Source: Desulfobacterales bacterium (GTDB lineage Bacteria > Desulfobacterota > Desulfobacteria > Desulfobacterales > JANQIE01). From it: a stretch of DNA of 64,000 bases. Where the stretch lies: NCBI GenBank assembly GCA_028282295.1, contig JANQIE010000081.1:1-64000 (forward strand), written 5' to 3'. Shown here piece by piece: positions 26,420 to 51,403 of the stretch. The stretch's first letter is position 1. Every line of letters begins with the position of its first letter. The notes beneath the pieces are model-generated. The model had not been told where the DNA came from, did no database searches, and saw only the letters and a list, made by a program, of their open reading frames with translations. The position numbers were made by a program, and so were the translations under genes.

Positions 26420-26764
26420 ATTTGTAACGTAAGCCCCATGTTCGGGTTACAAAATGATATATTGGATCCCCTAATTTTGAGGGCCTATTTTTATTTATTT
26501 GATACTACTGGTTAAATCCATATTTAAGCCCTTCTTGTAACCCCTTGGTTTTGTAACCCTCATGTAACCCCGCCTGTGATATAAGCTTTGAGTAACAGCT
26601 CTTCGCGATACTGTCCGTGCTTGGGCGCTTTTTCAGTTGACCGTGTTTCCCAACCGCCGATTGGCACCCGTGACAAGCACAAGGTCTTGGCAGTCTGCTT
26701 CCCCGGTTTCGGCCGGATTGAAGGAGGGCATGATGATCCATCATTTACCAAGGAGGTGGCCTGT

Positions 26765-29700
26765 ATGGAATTAACACGTCGGGGTTTTATCAAAATTTCC
26801 GGTGCCACGGCGGCAGGTCTTGCGGTCAGCGGGCTGGGCGTTGATTTAAAGCCGGTCAAGTCCCATGCGCAAATGCTCAAGACCAAGTACGCCAAGGAGA
26901 CCACGACCATCTGTCCGTATTGCGCGGTCGGTTGCGGCGCGATTGTGCATACCAGCAAGCGGGGCGATGGCCGGGTGATGAACATCGAGGGCGACCCGGA
27001 TCATGTGATCAACAGGGGCAGCCTTTGCGCCAAAGGGGCCGGGCTCAAGCAACTGGTGGAAAACGAAAACCGGTTGACCGTGCCGATGTATCGCGCTCCC
27101 TATTCGGACAAATGGCAGACCGTATCCTGGGATTGGGCCTTGGAAAAAATAGCCAAACGCGTCAAGGCGACCCGCGATCAAACATTCAGTGCCCAAAACG
27201 CCGCCGGGCAGCAGGTCAACCGTTGCGAGGGGATCGCCTCGGTAGGCAGCGCAGCGCTGGACAACGAAGAGTGCTGGCTTTACCAAACGTTGTTGCGCGC
27301 CCTGGGCCTGGTGTACATCGAACACCAGGCGCGTATCTGACACAGCGCTACGGTTGCGGCTCTGGCAGAGTCGTTCGGACGCGGCGCGATGACCAATCAC
27401 TGGATCGATATCAAGAACAGCGACTGCATTTTAGTCATGGGCAGCAACGCTGCCGAAAACCACCCCATTTCTTTTAAATACGTCAATGAGGCCATGGCCC
27501 ACGGCGCCACGCTGATCAGCGTCGATCCGCGTTTTACGCGCACATCGGCACGCGCCGACATTTATGCCCCCCTGCGTAGCGGCACCGATATCGCTTTTTT
27601 GGGCGGCATGATCAAATATATTCTCGACAACGACCTTTACCACGCCGAATATGTGGCCGACTACACCAATGCCTCTTTTATCGTCGGCAAAGCCTACAAG
27701 TTCAAAAACGGACTTTTTGCCGGTTACGACGCCAAAAAGCGCAAGTACGACAAATCCAGGTGGGCTTTTGCCAAGGACGGCACCGGTGTGCCCCAAATGG
27801 ACCGCAGCCTGAAACACAAACGCAGTGTGTTTCAGCTCATGAAAAAACACTACCGTCGCTACAACATCAAACTGGTCTCGCAGATCACCGGTACCCCGGA
27901 AGCCGATCTGCGCAAAATTTACAAAACCTACGCCGCCACCGGCAAACGCGGCAAGGCGGCCACCATCATGTACGCCATGGGCTGGACTCAGCATACCACC
28001 GGGGTGCAGAACATTCGTGCCATGGCGATCATCCAGCTTTTACTGGGCAACATGGGTGTGGCCGGCGGCGGCGTGAACGCGTTGCGCGGCGAATCGAACG
28101 TGCAAGGCTCCACGGACCATTGTCTGCTGTGGCACATCTGGCCCGGCTACCTGGCCACCCCCAGCACCAAGTGGCCCAAGCTGCAGGACTACCTCAAGCG
28201 CCGTCCGCAGAGCAAGGATCCCCTGTCGGCCAACTGGTGGCAGAACGAACCCAAATACATGGTCAGCATCCTCAAGTCGCTTTTCGGCGACAATGCCTCG
28301 GCAGCCAACGACTTTGGTTACGACTGGGTACCCAAGGTCGATGCCGGCACCCACTACTCCTGGCTCGACCTGTTCGACGAAATGTACAAAGGGACCTTCA
28401 AAGGCTTTTTTGCCTGGGGCCAAAACCCGGCTTGCAGCGGCGCCAATGCGGGGAAAAACCGCAAGGCTTTTGAAAAACTCGACTGGATGGTCAACGTCAA
28501 CCTGTTCGGGAACGAAACCGGCTCGTTCTGGAAAGCGCCGGGAGTTGATCCGGCCAAAATCAAAACCGAGGTCTTCATGCTGCCGGCGGCGGTGTCGGTG
28601 GAAAAAGAAGGCAGTATCACTAACAGCGGCCGTTGGATGCAATGGCGCTACCAGGGACCCAAACCGATGGGCGACAGCCGTCCCGACGGCGACATTATCA
28701 TGGAATTGGGTCACAAGATCATCGAACTTTATAAAAAGGAGGGCGGCACCTTCACCCAGCCGTTGACCAACCTGAAGTGGGACTATCTCACGGCCGGGCA
28801 GTATGATCCGCACAAGGTAGCCAAACAGATCAACGGCTATTTTCTCAAGGACGTCACCCTCAAGGGCAAAACGTACCGCAAGGGCAGCCTGGTGCCCAGC
28901 TTCGCTTTCTTGCAGGCGGACGGCTCCACCAGTTCCGGCAACTGGCTGTATTGCAACAGCTACACGGAAAAGGGCAACATGGCCGCCCGGCGCAGCCACA
29001 AGGACGCGGTCAACGGCATCGGTCTGTATCCCCAGTTTGCCTGGTGCTGGCCGGTCAACCGGCGCATCATTTACAACCGCGCCTCGGTCGATGTGACCGG
29101 ACAACCCTGGGATCACAAAGACTGGGTGATCCGCTTTGTCGGCGAAGCCAAGGCAGGCAAATATGTGTCCAAAAAATGGATCGGCGATGTGCCCGACGGC
29201 GGCTGGTACCCGTTGCGCAACCCGGACGGATCGGCCCGCGCGGACGCCAAGCACCCGTTTATCATGCGGCCCCATGGTCATGCCCAGATCTTCGGACCGG
29301 GACGCGCCGACGGGCCCTTACCCGAGCACTACGAGCCCCTGGAATGCCCGGTGGAGCGTAATTTCATGAATCCTCAGTACATCAACCCGACCGCGCCGGT
29401 ATACAAAGCCGACACTGATGCCTTTGCCACGTGTGATCCGCGCTTCCCCTACGTAGCCACCACCTACCGGGTGGTCGAACACTGGCAGACCGGCGTCATG
29501 ACCCGGCCGCAATCCTGGCTCATGGAGGCTCAGCCCCAGGTGTTTGTCGAAATGAGCGAACAACTGGCCAAGCTGCGGGGCATCAAAAACGGACAGCGCG
29601 TGAAGGTGTCTTCGGCCCGTGGCGCGTTGGAGGCCACGGCCATTGTCACCAAACGTCTGCAGCCGTTCAGGATATCCGGCACAACGGTCCATCAGGTCGG

Positions 29701-29839
29701 CATTCCCTGGCATTTTGGCTGGCGCTGGCCGCAATCCGGCGCCGAAGAAAGTGCGAATCTGCTGACACCGGCGGTTGGTGACCCGAATACACGGATTCCT
29801 GAAACCAAGGCCTTTATGGTCAATGTAACCCGGACATAA
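26765..29839 (+). CDS. fdhA: Selenocysteine-containing formate dehydrogenase alpha subunit, Tat-exported
   Basis: MELTRRGFIKISGATAAG Tat signal; CPYCAVGCG Fe-S motif; in-frame TGA 27338-27340 gives VYIEHQARIUHSATVAALAESFGRGAMTNHW. Confidence 0.95.
27358..27372 (+). promoter_or_regulatory. Bacterial SECIS-like hairpin in fdhA
   Basis: GGCTCT-GGC-AGAGTC hairpin (one G.U) with GG in loop at +24/25 after UGA. Confidence 0.65.
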
Positions 29840-30580: not shown

Positions 30581-30623
30581 ATTTGATTCATGATTTGCGT
30601 GGCCTTTGAGGCTGCGCAATCCC

Positions 30624-30661
30624 AGGGGAGAAGATGGGGCGGTCTTCTCCCCTTTTTTTTT
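30624..30661 (+). terminator. Intrinsic terminator after fdhAB
   Basis: AGGGGAGAAGA-tggggcgg-TCTTCTCCCCT followed by T-tract. Confidence 0.8.
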
Positions 30662-30745
30662 GCGCGAGCCCTTGGCTCAGACAAACGATTCGGAATAGAC
30701 TGCAATGAGTCTTGCCCCCAAAAGAATGTACGGAGGAAAAAACCG

Positions 30746-31627
30746 ATGACCTTTGATGCGAACGCGATCACCACAATCCAGACCGTTTTGCAAATCCTGA
30801 AAAAGCGCTGGCCGGACTACACGGCCCTGTTGTCGTTGTATGGTTCGATTTTTGAGGCCCAAGCAAAAACACGTGCTCATGTCAATGTGCCGTTGTCGAA
30901 GATACCGGCGGAGATATTGAAAATTAAGCAATCTGAGCAGTTACCGCTGATCACTGCCGCGGATTTCAAGTACGACCTTTATCAGACAGGTCGTTTGTTC
31001 GAAGAGTTGTGCCGGTTGACCAGTGCTTGCGATCCGCCGCTCGGGGCCGCCGCCCGAAATACCTTGGCGCAATGTCGCACCGGCCGGATCGAACCGGCAG
31101 CCTTGTTTGAACGGATGATGGATGATGATGACGACTATTTCGATGCCTTGCAAACCAAATACGGGATCGACAAAGCGGCCCTGGCGTTTTTGACCTATAA
31201 CAGCTTGCTACCGTCCATCGAGGCGGGCGTCGGGCAGTTGGCCGGTTACTTTGAGTCGCCGGACGATTGGACCAAAGGGTATTGTCCGGTTTGCGGCAGT
31301 CTGCCGTGCATGGCGGTTCTGGAGGGTGAAGGACAGCGTAGTCTGATATGCGGTTTTTGCCGCCATCGCTATCCGGGACGACGGCTGTTTTGTCCATTTT
31401 GTGAAACCACCGACACGGACCAACTTGACTATTTTTATGCCGAGGAAGAAAACGAATACCGGGTCAACACCTGCCGCAAGTGCCGGCGCTACCTGAAAAC
31501 CATCGATGCCCGCAAGCTGACAAGGCCGCTCTTTACACCCCTGGAGCAAATCGCCACCTTGCATCTGGACGTCAAAGCCCGTGAGTCGGGCTTTACCGGT
31601 GCGATGATGTTCGACCCGCTTGCTTAG
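30746..31627 (+). CDS. fdhE: Formate dehydrogenase accessory protein FdhE-like
   Basis: CPVCGSLPC, CGFCRHRY, CPFCE and CRKCRRYLKTID Cys motifs typical of FdhE; next to fdhAB. Confidence 0.85.
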   Translation: MTFDANAITTIQTVLQILKKRWPDYTALLSLYGSIFEAQAKTRAHVNVPLSKIPAEILKIKQSEQLPLITAADFKYDLYQTGRLFEELCRLTSACDPPLGAAARNTLAQCRTGRIEPAALFERMMDDDDDYFDALQTKYGIDKAALAFLTYNSLLPSIEAGVGQLAGYFESPDDWTKGYCPVCGSLPCMAVLEGEGQRSLICGFCRHRYPGRRLFCPFCETTDTDQLDYFYAEEENEYRVNTCRKCRRYLKTIDARKLTRPLFTPLEQIATLHLDVKARESGFTGAMMFDPLA

Positions 31628-38658: not shown

Positions 38659-40308
38659 ATGGGTAAAAGAATAGTCGTCGATCCGATTACCAGAATCGAA
38701 GGCCACATGCGCGTCGAAGTGGAGATCGCCGGTGGCAAGGTCGTCAACGCCTGGAGTTCCGGGCAGATGTTCCGGGGCATTGAAATGATTTTACTGGGGC
38801 GCGATCCGCGTGACGCGCAGCATTTTGTGCAGCGCTCCTGCGGGGTCTGAACGTACATCCATGCTCTGTCCTCGGTGAGGGCAGTCGAAGACGCCGTTGG
38901 TGTCAAAGTCCCCCCAAACGCCCGCCTGATTCGCAATCTGCTCCATGGTGCCCAGGTCCAACACGATCATCTGGTCCATTTTTATCATCTCCATGCCCTG
39001 GACTGGGTCGATATCATCAGCGCTTTAAAAGCCGACCCGGCCAAAACCGCCAAGCTGGCCGACAACGTCAGCAACGCCAAAGTCGGCGGCACTGCCTACT
39101 ACAAACAGGTGGCCCAACGCCTGCAAACCTTTGTCGACAGCGGTCAGCTCGGCCCGTTCGCCAATGCCTACTGGGGCCACCCGGCCTACAAGCTGCCGCC
39201 CGAGGCCAACCTGATGGCGGCGGCCCACTACATCGAAGCAATCCGCCTGCAAGCCCGCACCGCACGGCTACACGCCATCTTCGGCGGCAAGAACCCGCAT
39301 CCGCAGTCGTTGGTGGTCGGCGGTATGACCTGTATCCGGGATCTGCGCCCCGACCGGCTGGCCGAATTTCTCTTCATCACCAAGGAAGCCCAGGATTTCA
39401 TCAAAAACGTCTACATCCCGGATCTATTGGCCGTGGCCTCGTTCTACAAGGACTGGGGCGGTATCGGCGGCACCACCAACTTTCTGGCCTACGGCGAGTT
39501 TCCCCAGACCGACCAGGAACCGGACAGCCTCTACATGCCGCGCGGCATGATCAAAAAGCGCAACCTGGGCGGCGTGGGCATGGTCGATCCAAAGAAAATC
39601 ACCGAAGACGTGACCCGCGCCTGGTACGAGGACGGTTCGCCCAAGCACCCCTATGACGGTGAAACCAAGCCGCTCAAGGAAGATCCCAAATACCGGCCGG
39701 GCGACGGCAAATACTCCTGGCTCAAGGCGCCGCGCTATGACGGCAACGCCTGTGAAGTCGGCCCGCTGGCCCGCGTGCTGGTGGCCTACGGCAAGGGCCA
39801 CAAGGACATCAAGCCGCTGGTGGACGGCACGCTCACCAAGCTCGGCATTCCGGCCGGCGCCCTGTTTTCAACCCTGGGCCGCACCGCGGCCCGCGCCCTG
39901 GAAACCGTGGCCGTGGGCGACGCCATGCAAGGATGGCTGAACGAGCTGGTCGGCAACATCAAAAGCGGCGACACCAAGGTCTACCAATCCTATGAAATGC
40001 CGGACGAAGCCCAGGGCTTTGGCCTGAACGACGTGCCGCGCGGCTCGCTGGGCCACTGGATCAAAATCAAGAACAAAAAGATCGCCAACTACCAGTACGT
40101 GGTACCGTCCACCTGGAACCTGGGCCCGCGCGACGGCCAGGGCAACATCAGCCCGGTGGAGGAAGCACTGATCGGCACCCCGGTCGCCGACCCCAAGCAA
40201 CCGCTTGAGATCCTGCGGACGGTCCACTCCTTTGACCCGTGCATCGCCTGCGCCGTGCACGTGATCGACCCGGACAGCAATGAGGTGTACAAAATCAGAG
40301 TCATTTAA
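38659..40308 (+). CDS. Periplasmic [NiFe] hydrogenase large subunit with predicted selenocysteine in N-terminal L1 motif (RSCGVU)
   Basis: In-frame TGA 38848-38850 joins ORFs 38659-38850 and 38875-40308: [29 protein letters not shown]-terminal DPCIACAVH followed by a 15-aa extension. Confidence 0.92.
38866..38884 (+). promoter_or_regulatory. Bacterial SECIS-like hairpin in hydrogenase large subunit gene
   Basis: CTGTCCT-CGGTG-AGGGCAG 7-bp stem (one G.U) with GG in loop at +24/25 after UGA. Confidence 0.75.
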
Positions 40309-40616: not shown

Positions 40617-41156
40617 ATGCAGCAGCAACAGATCACAATCCTTGGTGTCGGCAACCTGTTGTTTCGTGACGAAGGCATCGGCGTCCGGGTGGCCGAACTG
40701 CTCGAACAACGGTACGACTTTCCCGACCATGTCGTGGTGGTGGACGGCGGGGTATTGGGCGTCAATCTGCTCGGCGTGATCGCCAACGCCGACAAACTGA
40801 TCGTCATCGACGCCATCCGCAACAAAAGTAAGCCGGGAACGTTGCACCGGCTGGCAGGTGACGAGATTCCCAAGCGGATTCTGGCTAAAAATTCGCTGCA
40901 TCAGGTCGATTTGCTGGAAGCCCTTACGCTTTGCAACGCCATCGACAAGCATCCCGAGACGGTGATTGTCGGCGTGGAGCCCGAAGATATTCGAACCTTG
41001 CAAGATGAACTGACACCCACGATTCAAGCCCGGGTCGAAGACCTGATCGCCATGGTCCTTACGGAACTCGATCGTTTGGACGTGTCCTACAGCCCCAGGA
41101 GTGCGACGGATGTGCCTTGCGATTCCATCCAAAATTGTGCAGATCGACGCGAATAA
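40617..41156 (+). CDS. Hydrogenase maturation endopeptidase
   Basis: ILGVGNLLFRDEGIGVRVAELLE and VVDGGVLGVNLL motifs of the HyaD/HybD family; follows large subunit. Confidence 0.9.
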   Translation: MQQQQITILGVGNLLFRDEGIGVRVAELLEQRYDFPDHVVVVDGGVLGVNLLGVIANADKLIVIDAIRNKSKPGTLHRLAGDEIPKRILAKNSLHQVDLLEALTLCNAIDKHPETVIVGVEPEDIRTLQDELTPTIQARVEDLIAMVLTELDRLDVSYSPRSATDVPCDSIQNCADRRE

Positions 41157-41346
41157 CATGGCGGTCATCGACGTGGAAGGTATCCGGCGTCAGGCCAGCC
41201 TTTTACTGCTCGAAGACGCCCAAGTCGGCGACTATGTGATCGTGCACGCCGGCTTTGCCATCAAAAAAATCGACGAGGCGGCCGCCAGGGAAACCATCGC
41301 TTACCTGCGCGAAGCGGTCTCCCGGGTCGACGATGAGTCCGCCTGA
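41110..41346 (+). CDS. hypC: Hydrogenase maturation chaperone HypC
   Basis: MCLAIPSKIV N-terminus and GDYVIVHAGFAI. Confidence 0.92.
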   Translation: MCLAIPSKIVQIDANNMAVIDVEGIRRQASLLLLEDAQVGDYVIVHAGFAIKKIDEAAARETIAYLREAVSRVDDESA

Positions 41347-44317
41347 TCACGTCATCAGCCGTTTCTCGCCTCAACGGATCTTCCGTCGCGTTCCCAATTT
41401 AATCCTGCGCCGCCCACTGGTGGTGTTGCTCATCATCCTGGCGGTGACCCTCGGGTTTATCTACCCCCTGCCACGCCTGGCATTCAAAACCACAGTCTAC
41501 GACCTGGTCATCGAAGACCTGCCGGAAACCCGCCGCTACGAAGCCTTTAAAAAAATCTTCGGGTCCGATGAAATCATCCGCATTGTTGTCAAGGCGCAAA
41601 ATGTCTTCGAGCCGGCCACCTTTGCCGCGATCACCGCGCTGGCCGACCAGGCAGCGCGCATTGAAGGGGTGCGGCGCATCATCAGCCTGCCGGGCATCAA
41701 GGCCACGGTCGATACCGGCGGCGCGCACGACCTGAAATCCTTTGCCGCCCTGATTGCGCCGGTCCAACTCTTTGAACGAAATCTTATCGCCAAAGATCAC
41801 AAATCGACCGTCATCACACTGGTTTTGAAGACCGGCGCCAACAATGCCGCGGTCCTTGCCGCCGTGCGGGCGTTGATCGACACCACGCCGGCATCGCTCG
41901 CCATCTACCAGATCGGCATGCCGCTGGTGTCCGAAGCGCTGGCGGAGTTTTCCGAAACCGACTTTCTGCGCATCCCGCCGGTCACTACCGTCATCATCGC
42001 CCTGTTGTTGATTCTGCTGTTTCGCAACCTCACCTGCCTGGTGGTGCCCCTGGCCACGGTCACCGTCGCCCAGATCTGGACCTTCGGCCTGATGGCCTGG
42101 CTGGGGGTGCCCCTGACCATGCTGACCATGATCGTGCCGGTGTTCCTGATCGCCGTGGGCACCGCCTACTGCCTGCACATCTGCTCCGAGTATCTGCACG
42201 TGAGCCCCACGGCGGCCGACTCGCGCGAGGCCGTGTCGCTCACCTTCGGCAAGCTGGCCTTTCCCACGGTGCTGGCCGTGGTGACCACCATGATCGGCCT
42301 GGGTACCCTGCTGATCAATGACATCAGCGCCATCCGGGAATTTGCCGTGTTTTCCGTGTTCGGCGCGTTCAGCCTGCTGGTGGTGATTTTAACCTTGTTT
42401 CCGGCGGTGCTGGTTCTGCTGCCGACCCCGGCCGGACGCAACCATGACGGCAACCCGGTTGAACGACGGATCAATGCACTGCTGCAACAGATTATCCGCA
42501 TCACCCTCGAACATCGCAAAATCGGTTTGAGCATCATCGGCGTTTTCGTGCTGGTGTGCCTGATCGGCATCACACGGGTGCGGGTGGAGACCAACCCGGT
42601 GGGCTATTTCAAGGCCGATGTGCCGGTGAGCCGTCATTTTCACGATATCTACCAGGATCTGTCCGGCAGCTTTCCCATCAACGTCATGATGCAGGGCCGC
42701 ACCGAGTACTTCTTCGAAGATCTGGCCAACGTGCGTCAGATCGAAAGGTTGCAACGCTACCTGCAAACCCTGCCGGATGTCGACAAGACCGTCTCCTTTG
42801 TCGACTACCTCAAACTGGTCAATTACACCCTGAACCGCTACGACCCCAAATTCTACAGCCTGCCCGAAGAAGCATTTGAACTGCGCATGCTGATCAACAA
42901 CTTCAAAAGCCTGTTGGGCCGCGACATGCTGCGCCGATTCATGGACGACGATTTCACCCGCGCCAATGTGCTGCTGCTCACCCACATCTCAAGCTCGCGC
43001 CGGTTCCTGGACACCCAAAGTGCCATTTTGGACCATGTGGCAAAAAACTTTAATGAATCGCTCCAATGGGATGTGACCGGCCTGGGATTGGTGATCTCCG
43101 CCAGCAGTCATCTGCTGGTCAGCGGGCAGGTCAAAAGCCTGTCGCTGACCCTGATCCTGATTTTCGCCATCATGGTGGCGCTGTTTCTGTCGAGCAAGGT
43201 CGGCTGCATCGCCCTGGTGCCGAACCTGTTTCCCATCGTGGTCAACTTCGGCCTGATGGGCTGGCTGGGGGTCCAGTTGTCGGTGGCCACCAGCCTGATC
43301 GCCAGTATCGCCATCGGCTTGGCCGTGGACGATACGATCCATTTTCTGGTGCGCTACAACGAGGAATTCAAAAAGGACCTGGACAAGGACCGGGCCCTGA
43401 AGGATACTATCCTGCAGGTCGGCCAGCCGATTATTTTCACCACCATCACCATCAGCCTCGGGTTTGCAGTCTTGATTTTCTCTCACTTCGAGCCGACCGC
43501 TCTGTTCGGCGTCATGATGGTGGTGACCATGCTGTCGGCCCTGGTTGGTGATTTAATTTTACTGCCGTCGCTGATGCTGCATGTCGAGCTGGTGACCGCC
43601 TGGGACCTGCTGAAACTGATTCCCACCCTGGGCGGCATGCCGCCGGGGCTGGCCCACGAAATCAACCAGCCGCTCAATGCCATCAAGGTGGGCAGTGAAT
43701 TTTTAAAACGGATGCTCAAACAGGGCGCTGCCATCAAAGAAGACCAACTGGCGCAGGTGGTTCACGCCATCAGCGCCCAGGTGGACCGGGCCTCGGAATT
43801 GATCAACCGGTTGCGCGATTTCGGCTACAAACCCGATCTGGCCAAAGGGCAGGTTGGTGTCAACGATGCCGTGCGGGCGATTTTGTCTTTGATGGAAGGA
43901 CAATTGGCGGTGGAGAATATCGAACTTGAACTAACCCTGGATGAAACCCTGCCGCCCATCATGGGCCACGACAACCGGCTGGCGCAGGTCTTTTTCAACC
44001 TGATCACCAATGCCGGCGAGGCGATCAACGCGGATGCCTCCGGCCGTAACCCGCGCCGCATCACCATCAGCACCCGGACCGAGCAGACCCGTGTCACGGC
44101 GTTGGTGGCCGACACCGGCATCGGCATGCCCGCGCACGTCAGGGACCGTATCTTCGAACCCTTCTTCACCACCAAGGCGGTGGGCACGGGCAAAGGGCTG
44201 GGGCTGACCATCACCAAGGAGATCGTGCGGGATTATGACGGCCGGATCGTTGTTGAAAGCAGTGTCGGGCAAGGAACCATCGTGAAATTGATTTTTCCGG
44301 CAACGGAAGAAAAGTAG
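41333..44317 (+). CDS. RND-superfamily (MMPL-like) membrane protein fused to histidine kinase
   Basis: Two RND repeats (IGLAVDDTIHFLVRYNEEF) then H-box [20 protein letters not shown]-box VFFNLITNAGEAI, G-boxes VADTGIGM and GTGKGLGLTI in one frame. Confidence 0.9.
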   Translation: MSPPDHVISRFSPQRIFRRVPNLILRRPLVVLLIILAVTLGFIYPLPRLAFKTTVYDLVIEDLPETRRYEAFKKIFGSDEIIRIVVKAQNVFEPATFAAITALADQAARIEGVRRIISLPGIKATVDTGGAHDLKSFAALIAPVQLFERNLIAKDHKSTVITLVLKTGANNAAVLAAVRALIDTTPASLAIYQIGMPLVSEALAEFSETDFLRIPPVTTVIIALLLILLFRNLTCLVVPLATVTVAQIWTFGLMAWLGVPLTMLTMIVPVFLIAVGTAYCLHICSEYLHVSPTAADSREAVSLTFGKLAFPTVLAVVTTMIGLGTLLINDISAIREFAVFSVFGAFSLLVVILTLFPAVLVLLPTPAGRNHDGNPVERRINALLQQIIRITLEHRKIGLSIIGVFVLVCLIGITRVRVETNPVGYFKADVPVSRHFHDIYQDLSGSFPINVMMQGRTEYFFEDLANVRQIERLQRYLQTLPDVDKTVSFVDYLKLVNYTLNRYDPKFYSLPEEAFELRMLINNFKSLLGRDMLRRFMDDDFTRANVLLLTHISSSRRFLDTQSAILDHVAKNFNESLQWDVTGLGLVISASSHLLVSGQVKSLSLTLILIFAIMVALFLSSKVGCIALVPNLFPIVVNFGLMGWLGVQLSVATSLIASIAIGLAVDDTIHFLVRYNEEFKKDLDKDRALKDTILQVGQPIIFTTITISLGFAVLIFSHFEPTALFGVMMVVTMLSALVGDLILLPSLMLHVELVTAWDLLKLIPTLGGMPPGLAHEINQPLNAIKVGSEFLKRMLKQGAAIKEDQLAQVVHAISAQVDRASELINRLRDFGYKPDLAKGQVGVNDAVRAILSLMEGQLAVENIELELTLDETLPPIMGHDNRLAQVFFNLITNAGEAINADASGRNPRRITISTRTEQTRVTALVADTGIGMPAHVRDRIFEPFFTTKAVGTGKGLGLTITKEIVRDYDGRIVVESSVGQGTIVKLIFPATEEK

Positions 44318-45265
44318 ATGAAAATTATGACAACAACACTCTACTGGCTCCAGGCCGGCGGTTGCGGTGGTGACACCTGGTCTTTTCTCAGCGCTGAATC
44401 GCCGGATGTCAGCGAATTGGTCGACATGTTGGCGGTCGATGTCCTGTGGCATCCGTCTTTTTCCCGTTTGCGGCCGGCCGAACTGGCAACCTTGCACCAC
44501 CAAATTGAGACCGGCGACCAAACCCTGGATATTTTATGCGTGGAGGGTGCGATCTTGCAGGGACCCGAGGGCACCGGCATGTGCGACACCCTGGCCGGCC
44601 GGCCCAAAATGGATCTGATCCGGGCCCTGGCCGCAAAAGCCCACCACGTGGTCGCCGTGGGCACCTGTGCCTGCTTCGGCGGCATCGGCGGCGATGCCAC
44701 CGCCCAGGCCACCGGGTTGCAGTATGACAAGTGGACCGGCGGCGGTTTGCTGGACGCCGGTTTTACCACCGGCAGCGGCCGGCCGGTGATCAACCTGCCG
44801 GGGTGTCCCTGCCACTGTGACGCCCTCACCGGCACTCTTACGGCGCTGGTCAACGGCACCCCCCTTGAACTGGACCACTACAACGCGCCGGCGGACTGGT
44901 ACGGCATCATGGTGCACCAGGGCTGCACGCGCAACGAATACCACGAGTACCGGGTGGAAGAAAAACGGTTCGGGGAAAAAGGCTGCCTGTTTTTCTACAT
45001 GGGCTGCCACGGCCCTCTGGTTTACGGCCCCTGCAACAAGAGTCTGTGGAACCGGCGGTCTTCCAAAACCCGCGTGGGCGTGCCCTGTTTCGGCTGCACG
45101 CGGCCGGATTTTCCCCAGAAGTATCCGTTCTTTCAAACGCGCAACATCGAAGGCATTCCCATCGATTTGCCCGACGGGGTCAGCCGGGCGCATTACCTGG
45201 CCTACAAAGGGATGGCTGCCGCCGCGGCCCCCAGACGCTTGATCAAACGCAAAACCGGAATTTAA
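44318..45265 (+). CDS. Cytosolic sensor-type [NiFe] hydrogenase small subunit (HupU/HoxB-like)
   Basis: No signal peptide; LYWLQAGGCGGDTWSF, GTCACFGGIGG, GCPCHCDAL, CFGCTRPDFP motifs; starts right at preceding stop. Confidence 0.8.
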   Translation: MKIMTTTLYWLQAGGCGGDTWSFLSAESPDVSELVDMLAVDVLWHPSFSRLRPAELATLHHQIETGDQTLDILCVEGAILQGPEGTGMCDTLAGRPKMDLIRALAAKAHHVVAVGTCACFGGIGGDATAQATGLQYDKWTGGGLLDAGFTTGSGRPVINLPGCPCHCDALTGTLTALVNGTPLELDHYNAPADWYGIMVHQGCTRNEYHEYRVEEKRFGEKGCLFFYMGCHGPLVYGPCNKSLWNRRSSKTRVGVPCFGCTRPDFPQKYPFFQTRNIEGIPIDLPDGVSRAHYLAYKGMAAAAAPRRLIKRKTGI

Positions 45266-45278
45266 AGGGCCTGCTGCC

Positions 45279-46787
45279 ATGAGTGCCAAAAAAATCCAGA
45301 TCCTGCCGCTCAACCGGGTAGAAGGCGACCTGGAACTGCACCTCGAACTGCGCGACGGCGCGGTTTACGAGGTGCGCAGTGTGGGCACCATGTACCGCGG
45401 GATAGAAAACATCCTGAAGGGCCGCGCGCCCCTGGACAGCCTTGTAATTACACCGCGAATTTGCGGAATCTGCAGCACCGCCCATCTGAAAGCCGCGGCC
45501 AAAGCCCTGGACATGGTGTTCGGCGTTGACGTGCCCGACAATGCCCGCCGGGTGCGCAATGTCACCCTGATGGCGGAGCAGCTTCAAAACGATCTGCGCC
45601 ACAGCTTTTTACTTTTCTGTCCGGATTTTACCCATGCGGCCCATGCCCGCCAACCCCTGCATGCCGAGGCCGTGCAGCGGTACCTGCCGCTCAAGGGGAC
45701 CACGGCGCGGCAGGTCATCCAGCAGACCAAAACGCTGCTGGAAATCGTGGCGGTCCTGGGCGGTCAGTGGCCTCATTCTTCCTTCATGGTGCCGGGCGGT
45801 GTGGTGTCGGTGGCCGGTGTCAACGAAATCAACCAATGCCGCAGTCTGCTGCGCAATTTTCGCCGCTGGTATGAACACCGCATTTTAGGCTGCCCCCTGG
45901 AGCGCTGGCTGGACGTCAAAAACCGGACCAACCTGTTTCGCTGGCTGGAAGAAAAACCGGCCCACCACGACAGCGACCTCGGTTTTTTTATCCGCTTTTG
46001 CGCTGCCGCCGGCTTGATCCGGCCGACCGGCGGCTACCGTAATTTCCTATCCTACGGCGCCTTTGAAATGCCGCGGCAAACAGCCGTAAAACGCATCAAC
46101 GGCGGCAAAACCCTGCTTCCGGGCGGATTTGTCAACGATGGGGTGCCGGCAACATTCAACCAGGAGAAAATCGGCGAAGATATTGCCTGCGCCCGTTTTA
46201 CCGGTTACACGGGCAGCCGGCACCCGTTCAACGGCCTGACCCGGCCACTGGCCGCAACGGAAGATGACGTCAAATACAGTTGGGCCAAGGCCCCGCGCTA
46301 TCACAACCTGCCGGCGGAGACCGGACCGCTGGCCGAACGGGTGGTTGCCGCCGATCCGCTGTTTATCGATCTGGTCACGCCCGACGGACCCAGCGTGTTC
46401 AGCCGGCAGTTGGCCCGTCTGGTCCGGCCGGCGCAAATTCTACCGGTCATGGATACCTGGTTGCAGGAAATCGGCCACTCGCCGGAAGGTTTTTTTACCA
46501 ACTACGCCAAGGTGACCGACGGGCAGGGCTTCGGCCTGGTGCAGGCCCACCGGGGCGCCCTGGGCCACTGGCTGCAAATCGAAAACGGCAGGATCGCCCA
46601 CTATCAAATCATTACCCCCACCGCCTGGAACGCCTCACCGCGCGATGGGGCCGGACGGCGCGGCCCCTGGGAGCAGGCCCTGGTCGGCACCCACATCGAC
46701 AACCCCGCACAGCCCATCGAGGCCGAGCATATCGTGCGCAGTTTCGACCCCTGCCTGGTGTGTGCGGTTCACACGGTCGCAACATAA
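45279..46787 (+). CDS. Sensor-type [NiFe] hydrogenase large subunit (HupV/HoxC-like)
   Basis: RICGICSTAHL L1 motif; ends SFDPCLVCAVHTVAT with no cleavable C-terminal extension. Confidence 0.85.
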   Translation: MSAKKIQILPLNRVEGDLELHLELRDGAVYEVRSVGTMYRGIENILKGRAPLDSLVITPRICGICSTAHLKAAAKALDMVFGVDVPDNARRVRNVTLMAEQLQNDLRHSFLLFCPDFTHAAHARQPLHAEAVQRYLPLKGTTARQVIQQTKTLLEIVAVLGGQWPHSSFMVPGGVVSVAGVNEINQCRSLLRNFRRWYEHRILGCPLERWLDVKNRTNLFRWLEEKPAHHDSDLGFFIRFCAAAGLIRPTGGYRNFLSYGAFEMPRQTAVKRINGGKTLLPGGFVNDGVPATFNQEKIGEDIACARFTGYTGSRHPFNGLTRPLAATEDDVKYSWAKAPRYHNLPAETGPLAERVVAADPLFIDLVTPDGPSVFSRQLARLVRPAQILPVMDTWLQEIGHSPEGFFTNYAKVTDGQGFGLVQAHRGALGHWLQIENGRIAHYQIITPTAWNASPRDGAGRRGPWEQALVGTHIDNPAQPIEAEHIVRSFDPCLVCAVHTVAT

Positions 46788-46793
46788 CACGCT

Positions 46794-48887
46794 ATGACGA
46801 CCCCGCAATCTCTTCCCCAGGCCACCGTTACCGCCGAACAACTGCAGGCGTTGCTGCGGGAAAATAGACGCCTGCGCAAGGAAATCCAGGTGGCGCGCGA
46901 GGCCGCAGAGATCACGGCCAACCTGGTAGTCAAACAATTCGAGGAGACCGAGCGGGTTTTAAAACGCTTTCAGGACGCCAACGCCCAGCGTAAAGCCGTG
47001 CTCGACTCAGCCACCCAGATCGCCATTATCGCCACCGACATCGACGGCCTCGTCACAGTGTTCAACTCCGGGGCGCAAAACCTGCTCGGGTACCGGGCGG
47101 CCGACATCATCGGGCTTAAAACGCCGGTGGCCTTTCACGTGCCGGAAGAACTTCGGCGCCATGCCGCAAAACTAGCGCAGCAGTACAACCAGTCCATCCA
47201 GGCGGGGATTGATGTGCTGCTGACCTATGCCCGCCAGGGATACAGCGAGCAGACCGAATGGATCTACCGGCGTAAAACCGGCGAGCATTTTCCGGTGAGC
47301 ATGTCGATCAATGCGTTGTTGGACCCGCTGGGCGAATTCAACGGCCTGTTGTGCATCGCCATGGACATCACCGAAAAAAAGCGTTCAGATAAGGCCCTCA
47401 AGGAGAGTGAACGCAACTACCGGTTGCTGATGGCCAACATCCCCAACATCGTCTTCAAGGGCTACAAAGACGGCAGCATCGATTTTTTCGACGACAAGAT
47501 CGAAGCGCTGACCGGTTACAAACGCGAAGCGTTTATGTCGCGCAAGGTGAACTGGCCCGACCTGGTGCTGGAAGCCGACCAACCCGGTGTGCGCGCCGCG
47601 CTTATCCAGGCGTTGAAAGGCGACAAGCAGTATATCCGCGAGTACCGCATCCGCAAAAAAAACGGCGAGGTCATCTGGGTGGAGGCCGGCAACCAGATTA
47701 TTTGCGACGCCGCCGGTGAAATCGAGTTTATCACCGGCGCCTTTCTGGACATCACCGAACGCAAGGCCGCCGAAAAGGCCCTGCACCAGTCCGAGGAAAA
47801 ATACCGGTCGCTGTTTGCCGGCGGGCCGAACCCGATTTTTGTCCTCGACCGCCAAACCCTGGAAATCCTGGACGCCAACCCGAGTGCCGAACAGACCTAC
47901 GGCTACGCCAAGGCGGAATTGATCGGCCGCTGTTTCACCGACCTGGGCCGGTTTGAATACGAACACAAAACCTTTGCCGAAATGGGCGACAGCGACTGGT
48001 CCCAGGGGTGCGTGGTCAGCCAGAAGATCCGTCACTACAAAAAAGGGCACCAGCCGTTTTACACCAAGGTCAAGGCCTGCCCGGCCCAATACAAGAATCG
48101 CCACGCGATCATCCTGGCGGCCACCGACATCACCGAGACGGTGGAAAAAGACGCCCAGCTTTTCCAGGCCGGCAAAATGACCACCCTGGGAGAAATGTCG
48201 GCCGGAATCGCCCATGAGTTGAACCAGCCGCTCAACGCCATCAAAATCGGCAATGAATACCTGAAGAAGATGGTCCAGAAGGGCCGGGCAGTATCCGAAA
48301 AAGATCTTTTGGCCGTGACCACGGCGGTGACCGGTCAGGTGGAACGGGCCTCGGACATTATCAACCGCTTGCGGGAATTCGGCCGCAAACCGGATTTCAA
48401 AAAAGAGCTTGTCAATATCAACGATACGCTTAAATATGTGCACAGCATCATCGGTCAACAATTGATCCTGCAAAATATCAATGTCGGTTTCGACCTGGCG
48501 CCCGATCTGCCGCCGATCCTGGCCAATAAAAACCGGCTCGAACAGGTGGTGTTCAATCTGGTGACCAATGCCCGCGACGCCATTGAGCAGGCGTCCGGTG
48601 ATGATTCGTTGGCCGCGGTGCGCGAAATCCGCTTCACCAGTTTTCGTGAAAACCGGCAGGTGGTCTTCACTGTGGCCGACACCGGTGTCGGCATTGCGCG
48701 GGAAATGAGCGAGAAGATCTTTGAGCCGTTTTTCACCACCAAGGAGGTCGGCAAGGGGATGGGCCTGGGGCTTGCAATCTCCTACGGCATTGTGCGCGAT
48801 TTCGGCGGCAGCATCAAGGTGGAAAGCCATCAAGGGCAGGGCACTGTTTTTATCCTGAGTTTTCCCGGTGTCAAAGAAACGAAGTAA
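46794..48887 (+). CDS. Multi-PAS sensor histidine kinase, probable partner of sensor hydrogenase
   Basis: Three PAS/PAC-like segments, H-box [15 protein letters not shown], HATPase; no TM segments. Confidence 0.88.
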
Positions 48888-48918
48888 CCGGGTGGACACC
48901 CGAAACAAAGGTTTTAGC

Positions 48919-49287
48919 ATGAAGAAAATCCTGGTTATCGACGACGAAGCGCCCACGTTGGAGATGTTGCAGCTTTTTTTGGGAGCCTTGGACTACACTG
49001 TTTTGACGGCTGAAAACATGTCCGACGGGTTGGCCCTGTTTGAGCAGGAGCGGCCGCCCATTGTGCTGACCGATATCAAGATGCCGGGCAAGGACGGGTT
49101 TGAAGTGGTGCGGCAAATCAAGGCCGTCGCGCCGGCCACCGAAGTGATCGTTATCACCGGCCATGGCGACAGCGCGCTGGCCCGGCAGGCATTTGACCTG
49201 GCGGCGAGCGCGTTTATCCATAAGCCGCTGGATACCGACGCTTTGGAAGCGGCGTTGCAAGAGGCCGAAAAGAAGTTGGGACTGTAA
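48919..49287 (+). CDS. Single-domain response regulator
   Basis: KKILVIDDEAPTLEML, PPIVLTDIKMPGKDG; ends after REC domain. Confidence 0.88.
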   Translation: MKKILVIDDEAPTLEMLQLFLGALDYTVLTAENMSDGLALFEQERPPIVLTDIKMPGKDGFEVVRQIKAVAPATEVIVITGHGDSALARQAFDLAASAFIHKPLDTDALEAALQEAEKKLGL

Positions 49288-49295
49288 GGTTGACA

Positions 49296-50384
49296 ATGAC
49301 CGTGGAATTTCTCAAAGCCTTCAGCGAACCGGAACTGGCGCAGCAACTGATTCAACAGATCAAAGCAAAAAGCCGCACCCCGATCCGGCTGATGGAGGTG
49401 TGCGGCACCCACACGGTGGCCCTGTTTCGCAGCGGTATCCGTTCCGTCCTGCCGGAAACCATCAGTCTGCTGTCCGGGCCGGGGTGCCCGGTGTGCGTCA
49501 CCGCTCAGCAGGAGATCGACGCATTTATCGCCCTGGCCCGGCAAGAAGATGTAATCATCACCACCTTCGGCGACCTGATCCGCGTGCCCGGCACCTGCTC
49601 TTCCCTGCAACAACAGCGGGCCGGCGGCCGGGATATCCGCATGGTGTACGCCACCACCGACGCCCTGGCCATTGCCCGTGAAAATCCGGCCAGACAGGTC
49701 GTGTTCCTGGGGGTCGGGTTCGAAACCACTGCCCCTACCGTGGCTGCCGCCGTGATGGCCGCCAGGGCCGAAGGATTGAAGAACTTTTCCGTGATCAGCG
49801 CCCACAAGCTGGTGCCGCCGGCCCTGGCCGCCTTGATCCAAACCGCCAACATCCGGCTGGACGGGTTTATCCTGCCGGGCCATGCGTCGGTGATCATCGG
49901 CCTGAACGCCTACCGGCCGGTGTTTGCCGAACACCCCATGGCCGCGGTGGTGACCGGTTTCGAGCCGATCGACATACTTCAGGGGCTTGCCCTGCTAGTG
50001 GCGCAGATTGAAGCCGGGGAGAAGCAATTGGCCAACGCCTATCCCCGCGCGGTGACGGCCGAAGGCAACCAGCCGGCCCAAAAGATTTTAGCCGACGTTT
50101 TTAGACCGGTGGATGCGCTCTGGCGGGGGCTCAGCGTGATCCCCCGAAGCGGTCTGGCCCTGGCGGAAGCCTATGGCGAATTTGACGCGACCCGGCGGTT
50201 TCAGATTGAAGTTGAAGATGTGCCCGAACCCAAAGGCTGCGCCTGCGGCGAAATCCTGACCGGTTTAAAAACACCGCCCGAATGTGCGCTTTACCAAAAA
50301 AAGTGTACCCCGGCCGCGCCGGTGGGACCGTGCATGGTGTCGAGCGAGGGGACGTGTGCGGCCTACTACAGATATCAGGGGTGA
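49296..50384 (+). CDS. hypD: Hydrogenase maturation protein HypD
   Basis: MEVCGTHTVALFRSGIRSVLP, GPGCPVCVT, FETTAPTVA. Confidence 0.95.
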   Translation: MTVEFLKAFSEPELAQQLIQQIKAKSRTPIRLMEVCGTHTVALFRSGIRSVLPETISLLSGPGCPVCVTAQQEIDAFIALARQEDVIITTFGDLIRVPGTCSSLQQQRAGGRDIRMVYATTDALAIARENPARQVVFLGVGFETTAPTVAAAVMAARAEGLKNFSVISAHKLVPPALAALIQTANIRLDGFILPGHASVIIGLNAYRPVFAEHPMAAVVTGFEPIDILQGLALLVAQIEAGEKQLANAYPRAVTAEGNQPAQKILADVFRPVDALWRGLSVIPRSGLALAEAYGEFDATRRFQIEVEDVPEPKGCACGEILTGLKTPPECALYQKKCTPAAPVGPCMVSSEGTCAAYYRYQG

Positions 50385-50392
50385 TTCTGCTT

Positions 50393-51403
50393 ATGACTAA
50401 AACCAAAATACTTCTCGATCACGGCAGCGGCGGCAAGATGGCGCAGGACTTGATCGCCGATCTGATGCTGCCGGGCTTTGACAACCCGATGCTGGCCAAG
50501 CTGGACGACGGCGCCGTGCTGGAGCTGAACGGGCAGCGGCTGGCCTTTTCAACGGACAGTTATGTGGTCGATCCGATCTTCTTCCCCGGCGGCTGCATCG
50601 GCGACCTGGCCATCAACGGCACCGTGAACGATATCGCCATGTGCGGGGCCCGGCCGCTTTTTTTAAGTGTCGGGTTGATTATCGAAGAAGGCTTTGACCA
50701 GGACGATCTCAAGCGCATCCTGGCCGCCATGTCGGCTGCCGCCCGGCAGGCCGGGGTGCTGGTGGTGACCGGCGACACCAAGGTCGTGCCCCGGGGTGCG
50801 GCCGACAAAGTCTTTATCAACACCACCGGGATCGGCGTGATTCCCGCTGGCGTTGCCGTCGGCGGCGATAATGCCCGGATCGGTGATCAGGTAATTGTCA
50901 GCGGCACCCTGGCCGATCACGGTATGACGATCCTGAGTCAACGCGAAGGGTTGTCTTTCGATAGCACGCTTGAGAGCGATTCGGCACCGCTGAATCACCT
51001 GGTCGACGCCATGCTCCAGGACGGTCGCGCGGTGCACGTGCTGCGGGACCCGACCCGCGGTGGCGTCGCCACCACCCTTAATGAAATTGCCCAGAGTTCA
51101 ACGGTCGGCATCCGGTTGATCGAAGATCAAATTCCGGTCAAGCCCGACGTGGCCGGCGTATGCGACCTGTTGGGCTTTGATCCGCTTTACGTAGCCAACG
51201 AAGGTAAACTGCTGGCCGTGGTGGCGCCCGAAGATGCCGCTGCCGTGCTGGCGGTCATGCAGGCCGACCCGCATGGCGCCGATGCCTGCATCATCGGCGA
51301 AGTAATCGCGGATCATCCGGGCAAAGTCTTCATGCAAACCCGCATCGGCGGCCACCGCATCGTCGATATGTTAACCGGCGAACAACTGCCACGAATTTGT
51401 TAG
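50393..51403 (+). CDS. hypE: Hydrogenase maturation protein HypE
   Basis: LLDHGSGGKMAQDLI N-terminus and C-terminal PRIC. Confidence 0.95.
   Translation: MTKTKILLDHGSGGKMAQDLIADLMLPGFDNPMLAKLDDGAVLELNGQRLAFSTDSYVVDPIFFPGGCIGDLAINGTVNDIAMCGARPLFLSVGLIIEEGFDQDDLKRILAAMSAAARQAGVLVVTGDTKVVPRGAADKVFINTTGIGVIPAGVAVGGDNARIGDQVIVSGTLADHGMTILSQREGLSFDSTLESDSAPLNHLVDAMLQDGRAVHVLRDPTRGGVATTLNEIAQSSTVGIRLIEDQIPVKPDVAGVCDLLGFDPLYVANEGKLLAVVAPEDAAAVLAVMQADPHGADACIIGEVIADHPGKVFMQTRIGGHRIVDMLTGEQLPRIC

Follow-up and report, generated by a model that had tools for sequence, protein, structure and literature searches.

The window, a 64,000-nucleotide stretch of a Desulfobacterales contig (JANQIE010000081.1), encodes a [NiFe] hydrogenase surrounded by signaling and maturation genes. 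The locus is composed of the following features.

41255..44317 (+), MMPL/RND-type transporter domains fused to a histidine kinase module
44318..45265 (+), hydrogenase small subunit, 315 aa, without a Tat signal
45279..46787 (+), hydrogenase large subunit, 502 aa
46794..48887 (+), soluble histidine kinase, 697 aa, with an N-terminal helix, three PAS domains, HisKA and HATPase
46848..46973 (+), predicted N-terminal amphipathic helix of the kinase, ~43 aa, a proposed hydrogenase-docking element
48920..49287 (+), single-domain receiver (CheY-like); a longer ORF from GTG 48868 overlaps the kinase
49290..50384 (+), HypD, a hydrogenase maturation factor
50282..51403 (+), AIR-synthase-type protein, probably HypE, named from its fold family and position

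The small subunit has the N-terminus MKIMTTTLYWLQAGGCGGD and a proximal-cluster motif of C16-GG-D19, and the ligands for the medial and distal clusters are present. The large subunit possesses four of the four nickel-binding cysteines, found in the L1 (RICGICSTAH) and L2 (DPCLVCAVH) motifs. It matches PF00374 far above chance (E=5.7e-81), and the best PDB match is Huc (E=1.5e-115). The initial annotation had described a small subunit lacking a Tat signal and a large subunit lacking the C-terminal peptide that is removed during maturation. The observation is confirmed in that the 315 amino acids contain no Tat motif and the large subunit ends DPCLVCAVH-TVAT, with a tail of only 4 residues (TVAT) past the final His of the last active-site motif. 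No protease gene adjoins this hydrogenase, and the protease of the other hydrogenase in the window, Hyd-1, could conceivably process the TVAT tail.

The next two genes had been read as a soluble PAS kinase and a response regulator. The kinase is indeed soluble, a histidine kinase bearing three PAS domains. The regulator is a receiver domain alone, without a DNA-binding or other output domain, and no NtrC-type HoxA adjoins the kinase at the locus. For the receiver, a start at ATG 48920 is more likely than one at GTG 48868. The MMPL/RND-kinase fusion lies directly upstream of the hydrogenase (44318-46787) and is also found at L037, L046, L048, L049, L051, L196, and L197. A readthrough fusion of the large subunit to the kinase was considered and dropped; the C terminus of the large subunit is buried. 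The genome holds one further clear [NiFe] large subunit, Hyd-1, together with a weak match that stays below the threshold; nothing in it matched an [FeFe] hydrogenase. A search of viral contigs returned no relatives.

Phylogeny and group assignment

An alignment of close relatives was used to scan named genomes, which yielded 80 loci. A wide tree was built from 98 rows, including six group 2a and four group 2b references, and a more careful tree from 36 rows. In the 98-row tree, the window large subunit falls in an 82-row clade (SH-aLRT 99) that contains Methylobacter tundripaludum (L117), and the 2a and 2b references form groups apart from it. In the 36-row tree, the clade is supported at 100/99 and joins 2a as its sister (98/93), with 2b outside. 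Forcing the window sequence together with 2b was rejected (p-AU 0.0013). The initial annotation had invoked the HoxC/HupV regulatory enzymes, which implied group 2b, and had set phylogenetic placement against that and other [NiFe] groups as a check. The large subunit lies in a separate clade, the 2b-specific residues tested are absent, and the implied family is wrong.

The M. tundripaludum hydrogenase has been cited as group 2c (PMC4853749), and Methylobacter genomes have been classed as 2c (PMC12810054). With Methylobacter in its clade and these two classifications in print, the window hydrogenase is filed here as group 2c by phylogeny, a label that depends on the placement of published members and takes L117 to be the cited one. 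Its L2 motif, SFDPCLVCAVH, differs from the published 2c consensus SFDxCLVCTVH at one position (T to A), a change common to many members of the clade. Like group 2c, the enzyme shares one clade with M. tundripaludum, is predicted to be cytosolic, and has a signaling gene adjacent to it. In HydDB, the descriptor of 2b is histidine kinase-linked and that of 2c is diguanylate cyclase-linked, the latter marked as putative (PMC5037454). The window enzyme differs from that label and from the diguanylate cyclase/phosphodiesterase partner expected for 2c in that its partners are a PAS histidine kinase (HisKA/HATPase without GGDEF) and a lone receiver. The HydDB label is a putative link and no phylogenetic criterion, and the clade is mostly kinase-linked. 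The window enzyme also differs from the group 2c entry in having no adjacent protease and a tail of only 4 aa.

The absence of a Tat signal had been taken as a hallmark of a regulatory enzyme. No Tat-like motif was found in 79/80 of the 2c small subunits, in 6/6 from group 2a, or in 4/4 from group 2b. Since the uptake enzymes of group 2a lack it too, Tat absence cannot separate sensors from uptake enzymes. The lack of a C-terminal extension is not diagnostic among the clade members either, whose tails past the last His span 0-24 residues; HoxC has a tail of 0 and ends exactly at His. A protease gene is adjacent at 44 of the 56 loci with tails of at least 10 residues versus 7 of 24 (Fisher p=8e-5, uncorrected for shared ancestry).

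Residues at the clusters and active site set the clade apart. Position 19 of the proximal motif is Asp in 79/80 members and Glu in 1/80 (a CxxD motif), Cys in 2b, and Asn in 2a. In group 2b enzymes, the proximal and the medial cluster each have four Cys (three [4Fe-4S]), and the window enzyme has D19 and K250 where all four 2b references have Cys. The narrow gas channel of 2b is formed by Ile62 and Phe110. At these positions, Ile64 of the window enzyme agrees with 2b, and the equivalent of Phe110 is Leu. Replacement of the conserved L1 His by Gln is a 2b feature (PMC5665086); the window retains His69 where 4/4 of the 2b references have Gln.

Signaling partners and their N-terminal segment

The gene that follows the large subunit, or its protease, encodes a kinase, a hybrid kinase, or a diguanylate cyclase. 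The partner could be read at 75 clade loci, 66 of the main branch and nine of the Methylobacter/Ideonella type; seven loci ended before it. No non-signaling partner gene was seen among the loci with a readable partner. The main-branch partners are 61 kinases and 5 diguanylate cyclases (GGDEF), and all 66 share an N-terminal segment of ~43 residues (E<=1.4e-16; ten of these were outside the profile), with the consensus ENxxLRxExRVARxAAEITAxLVVEQFExTExxLxRL. With a hydrophobic periodicity that is strongest at 100 degrees and a combined Pro and Gly content of 0.6%, it has the character of an amphipathic alpha helix. Three of the five GGDEF partners contain almost nothing beyond this helix and the GGDEF domain. 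At L039, L110, L112, and L114, the helix leads directly into a kinase or GGDEF domain without PAS; PAS is therefore not required.

The segment was then sought in whole genomes. A profile built from 25 segments was searched first against 297 genomes of the phylum and next against 58 closer relatives, which together make 348 distinct genomes. In 14/14 genomes with this hydrogenase, the helix was matched in the gene after it, and seven of the 14 came from the second search only. Among the remaining genomes, the helix occurred in 1/334 (G399). There, an 8.3-kb contig without a hydrogenase (L203, G399:C277) encodes a helix-bearing hybrid kinase and a REC-GGDEF regulator. The hydrogenase of L203 may lie elsewhere, be unassembled, or have been lost.

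HoxJ and three of four other 2b or 2b-like partners carry a different segment, WxxVIxxMDxxYxxL, and the fourth, a Rhizobium kinase, gave no match. This HoxJ-type helix is absent from the window kinase. The hydrogenases of L041 and L013 have ~40% identity, and their partners bear a helix of the HoxJ type. In the tree, L041 falls with 2b, although its proximal motif has Asp.

Unlike in the window, no N-terminal helix could be detected by the profile in the partners of the Methylobacter/Ideonella branch (9 rows), which is the 2c of the literature. The Methylobacter partners (L117:9938-12613 and others) instead have an N-terminal Rieske [2Fe-2S] domain before PAS-GGDEF-EAL. This domain hints at electron transfer from the hydrogenase to the c-di-GMP enzyme in that branch.

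Proposed role in H2 sensing

The region 44318-49287 is, with good probability, an H2-sensing module composed of a group 2c hydrogenase, a histidine kinase proposed to dock on it through a helix, and a receiver. Of the readings considered for the hydrogenase, a sensory role has the best support, and the sensing function named in the initial annotation is likely right. This reading stems from the adjacent kinase and receiver, from the pairing of relatives with kinases or diguanylate cyclases, and from a partner-specific helix that tracks the hydrogenase. At the level of sequence, the components in place are all of the nickel ligands, an iron-sulfur relay, the lack of an export signal, a clade distinct from both 2a and 2b, and a partner helix retained as the output modules vary.

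In the proposed mechanism, H2, the presumed signal, would be bound and oxidized at the active site of the cytosolic group 2c hydrogenase, and the electrons would charge its cluster chain. The kinase would read the changed state of the hydrogenase through its N-terminal helix, which may form the docking surface on the hydrogenase. The signal would pass either as a flow of electrons or through a coupled change in conformation, and the kinase would then alter phosphorylation of the adjoining receiver. To our knowledge, the route of the H2 signal from a sensor hydrogenase to its kinase is unclear even in the Cupriavidus necator model. If the helix is a docking element that precedes unrelated output domains, it would offer a defined target for mutation, swapping, and structure determination. 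HoxJ of C. necator phosphorylates without H2 (PMC10073562), and H2 may switch the window kinase either on or off.

A broader proposal is somewhat favored: that H2 sensing is modular, with one hydrogenase lineage marked by an Asp-ligand proximal cluster and interchangeable outputs (PAS kinase, hybrid kinase, diguanylate cyclase) connected through one conserved docking helix that occurs almost nowhere but in hydrogenase partners. If true, group 2c, labeled "diguanylate cyclase-linked," would widen into a family across many bacterial phyla in which most members are linked to kinases, and the docking helix could serve in H2-responsive circuits.

That the sister group 2a is metabolic counts against a sensing module, as do the lack of a detected helix in the Methylobacter/Ideonella branch, the helix-bearing kinase of L203 on a contig without a hydrogenase, and the seven loci cut off ahead of the partner. 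The window enzyme could be a metabolic uptake hydrogenase related to 2a that lies beside signaling genes by chance, and the 98/93 sister grouping in the 36-row tree fits this. Among solved structures, Huc of Mycobacterium smegmatis (PDB 7utd, 7uur) is also the nearest to both subunits, and it shares the lack of Tat, and the catalytic residues of the window enzyme are all intact. Yet this reading is improbable, given a signaling partner at every readable locus, in many phyla, and a helix specific to such partners. The 2a loci have no kinase partners and carry NifU, NHL-repeat, or TPR proteins instead. Unlike the window enzyme, 2a enzymes have a long tail and an adjacent protease, and the proximal motif has Asn where the window clade has Asp.

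Slightly less probable again is a redox sensor, in which the kinase senses some other signal via PAS, with the hydrogenase acting only by setting the redox state of PAS or of a shared electron pool. The three PAS domains of the kinase are compatible with this, and the Rieske [2Fe-2S] domain of the Methylobacter partners fits electron transfer to the partner, but the partners at L039, L110, L112, and L114 have no PAS. A regulatory hydrogenase of the HoxBC/HupUV type (group 2b), signaling in the manner of C. necator, is very improbable: a cytosolic hydrogenase with little or no tail and no Tat, next to a soluble histidine kinase with PAS domains and with Ile64 at the gas-channel position, resembles HoxBC-HoxJ-HoxA and HupUV, but the tree and the AU test exclude it, His69 replaces Gln, Leu replaces Phe110, D19 and K250 stand in place of the proximal and extra medial Cys, the kinase helix is not of the HoxJ type, and the regulator is receiver-only where 2b has the NtrC-type HoxA.

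Hyd-1 and selenocysteine candidates

The other hydrogenase of the window, Hyd-1, lies upstream of the locus.

38659-40308, Hyd-1 large subunit, with an in-frame TGA at 38848-38850 and a hairpin at 38866-38884

Hyd-1 has a Tat signal on its small subunit, a 15-aa tail on its large subunit, and a HupD/HybD-type protease gene at 40617-41156. The extension and the neighboring protease had been noted in the initial annotation and were found again; the TGA was absent from it. Because of this TGA, the large-subunit frame is not open. The TGA occupies the second Cys of L1 (RSCGV-U-TYIH), and a SECIS-like hairpin, CTGTCCTCGGTGAGGGCAG, with a GGU loop begins 18 nt downstream of it. The same TGA and hairpin occur in seven related loci, L049 together with L152, L153, L154, L157, L159, and L161, the latter six from the phylum search. 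The hairpin core is exact in six of the seven and has one changed base in the other; the hairpin is absent from the one Cys homologue compared. The genome encodes tRNA-Sec and SelB.

These features suggest that Hyd-1 carries a selenocysteine at an L1 nickel ligand, which is unusual compared to the known L2 position. Classical [NiFeSe] enzymes have Sec at the L2 position (PMC11212049). UxxC motifs for hydrogenase alpha subunits are given in a 2026 selenoproteome review (PMC13188914).

The window also encodes an FdhE-like gene (30590-31627) and a formate dehydrogenase catalytic subunit (26588-29839). The latter has an in-frame TGA at 27338 (ARI-U-HSATVA), which is probably read as selenocysteine.
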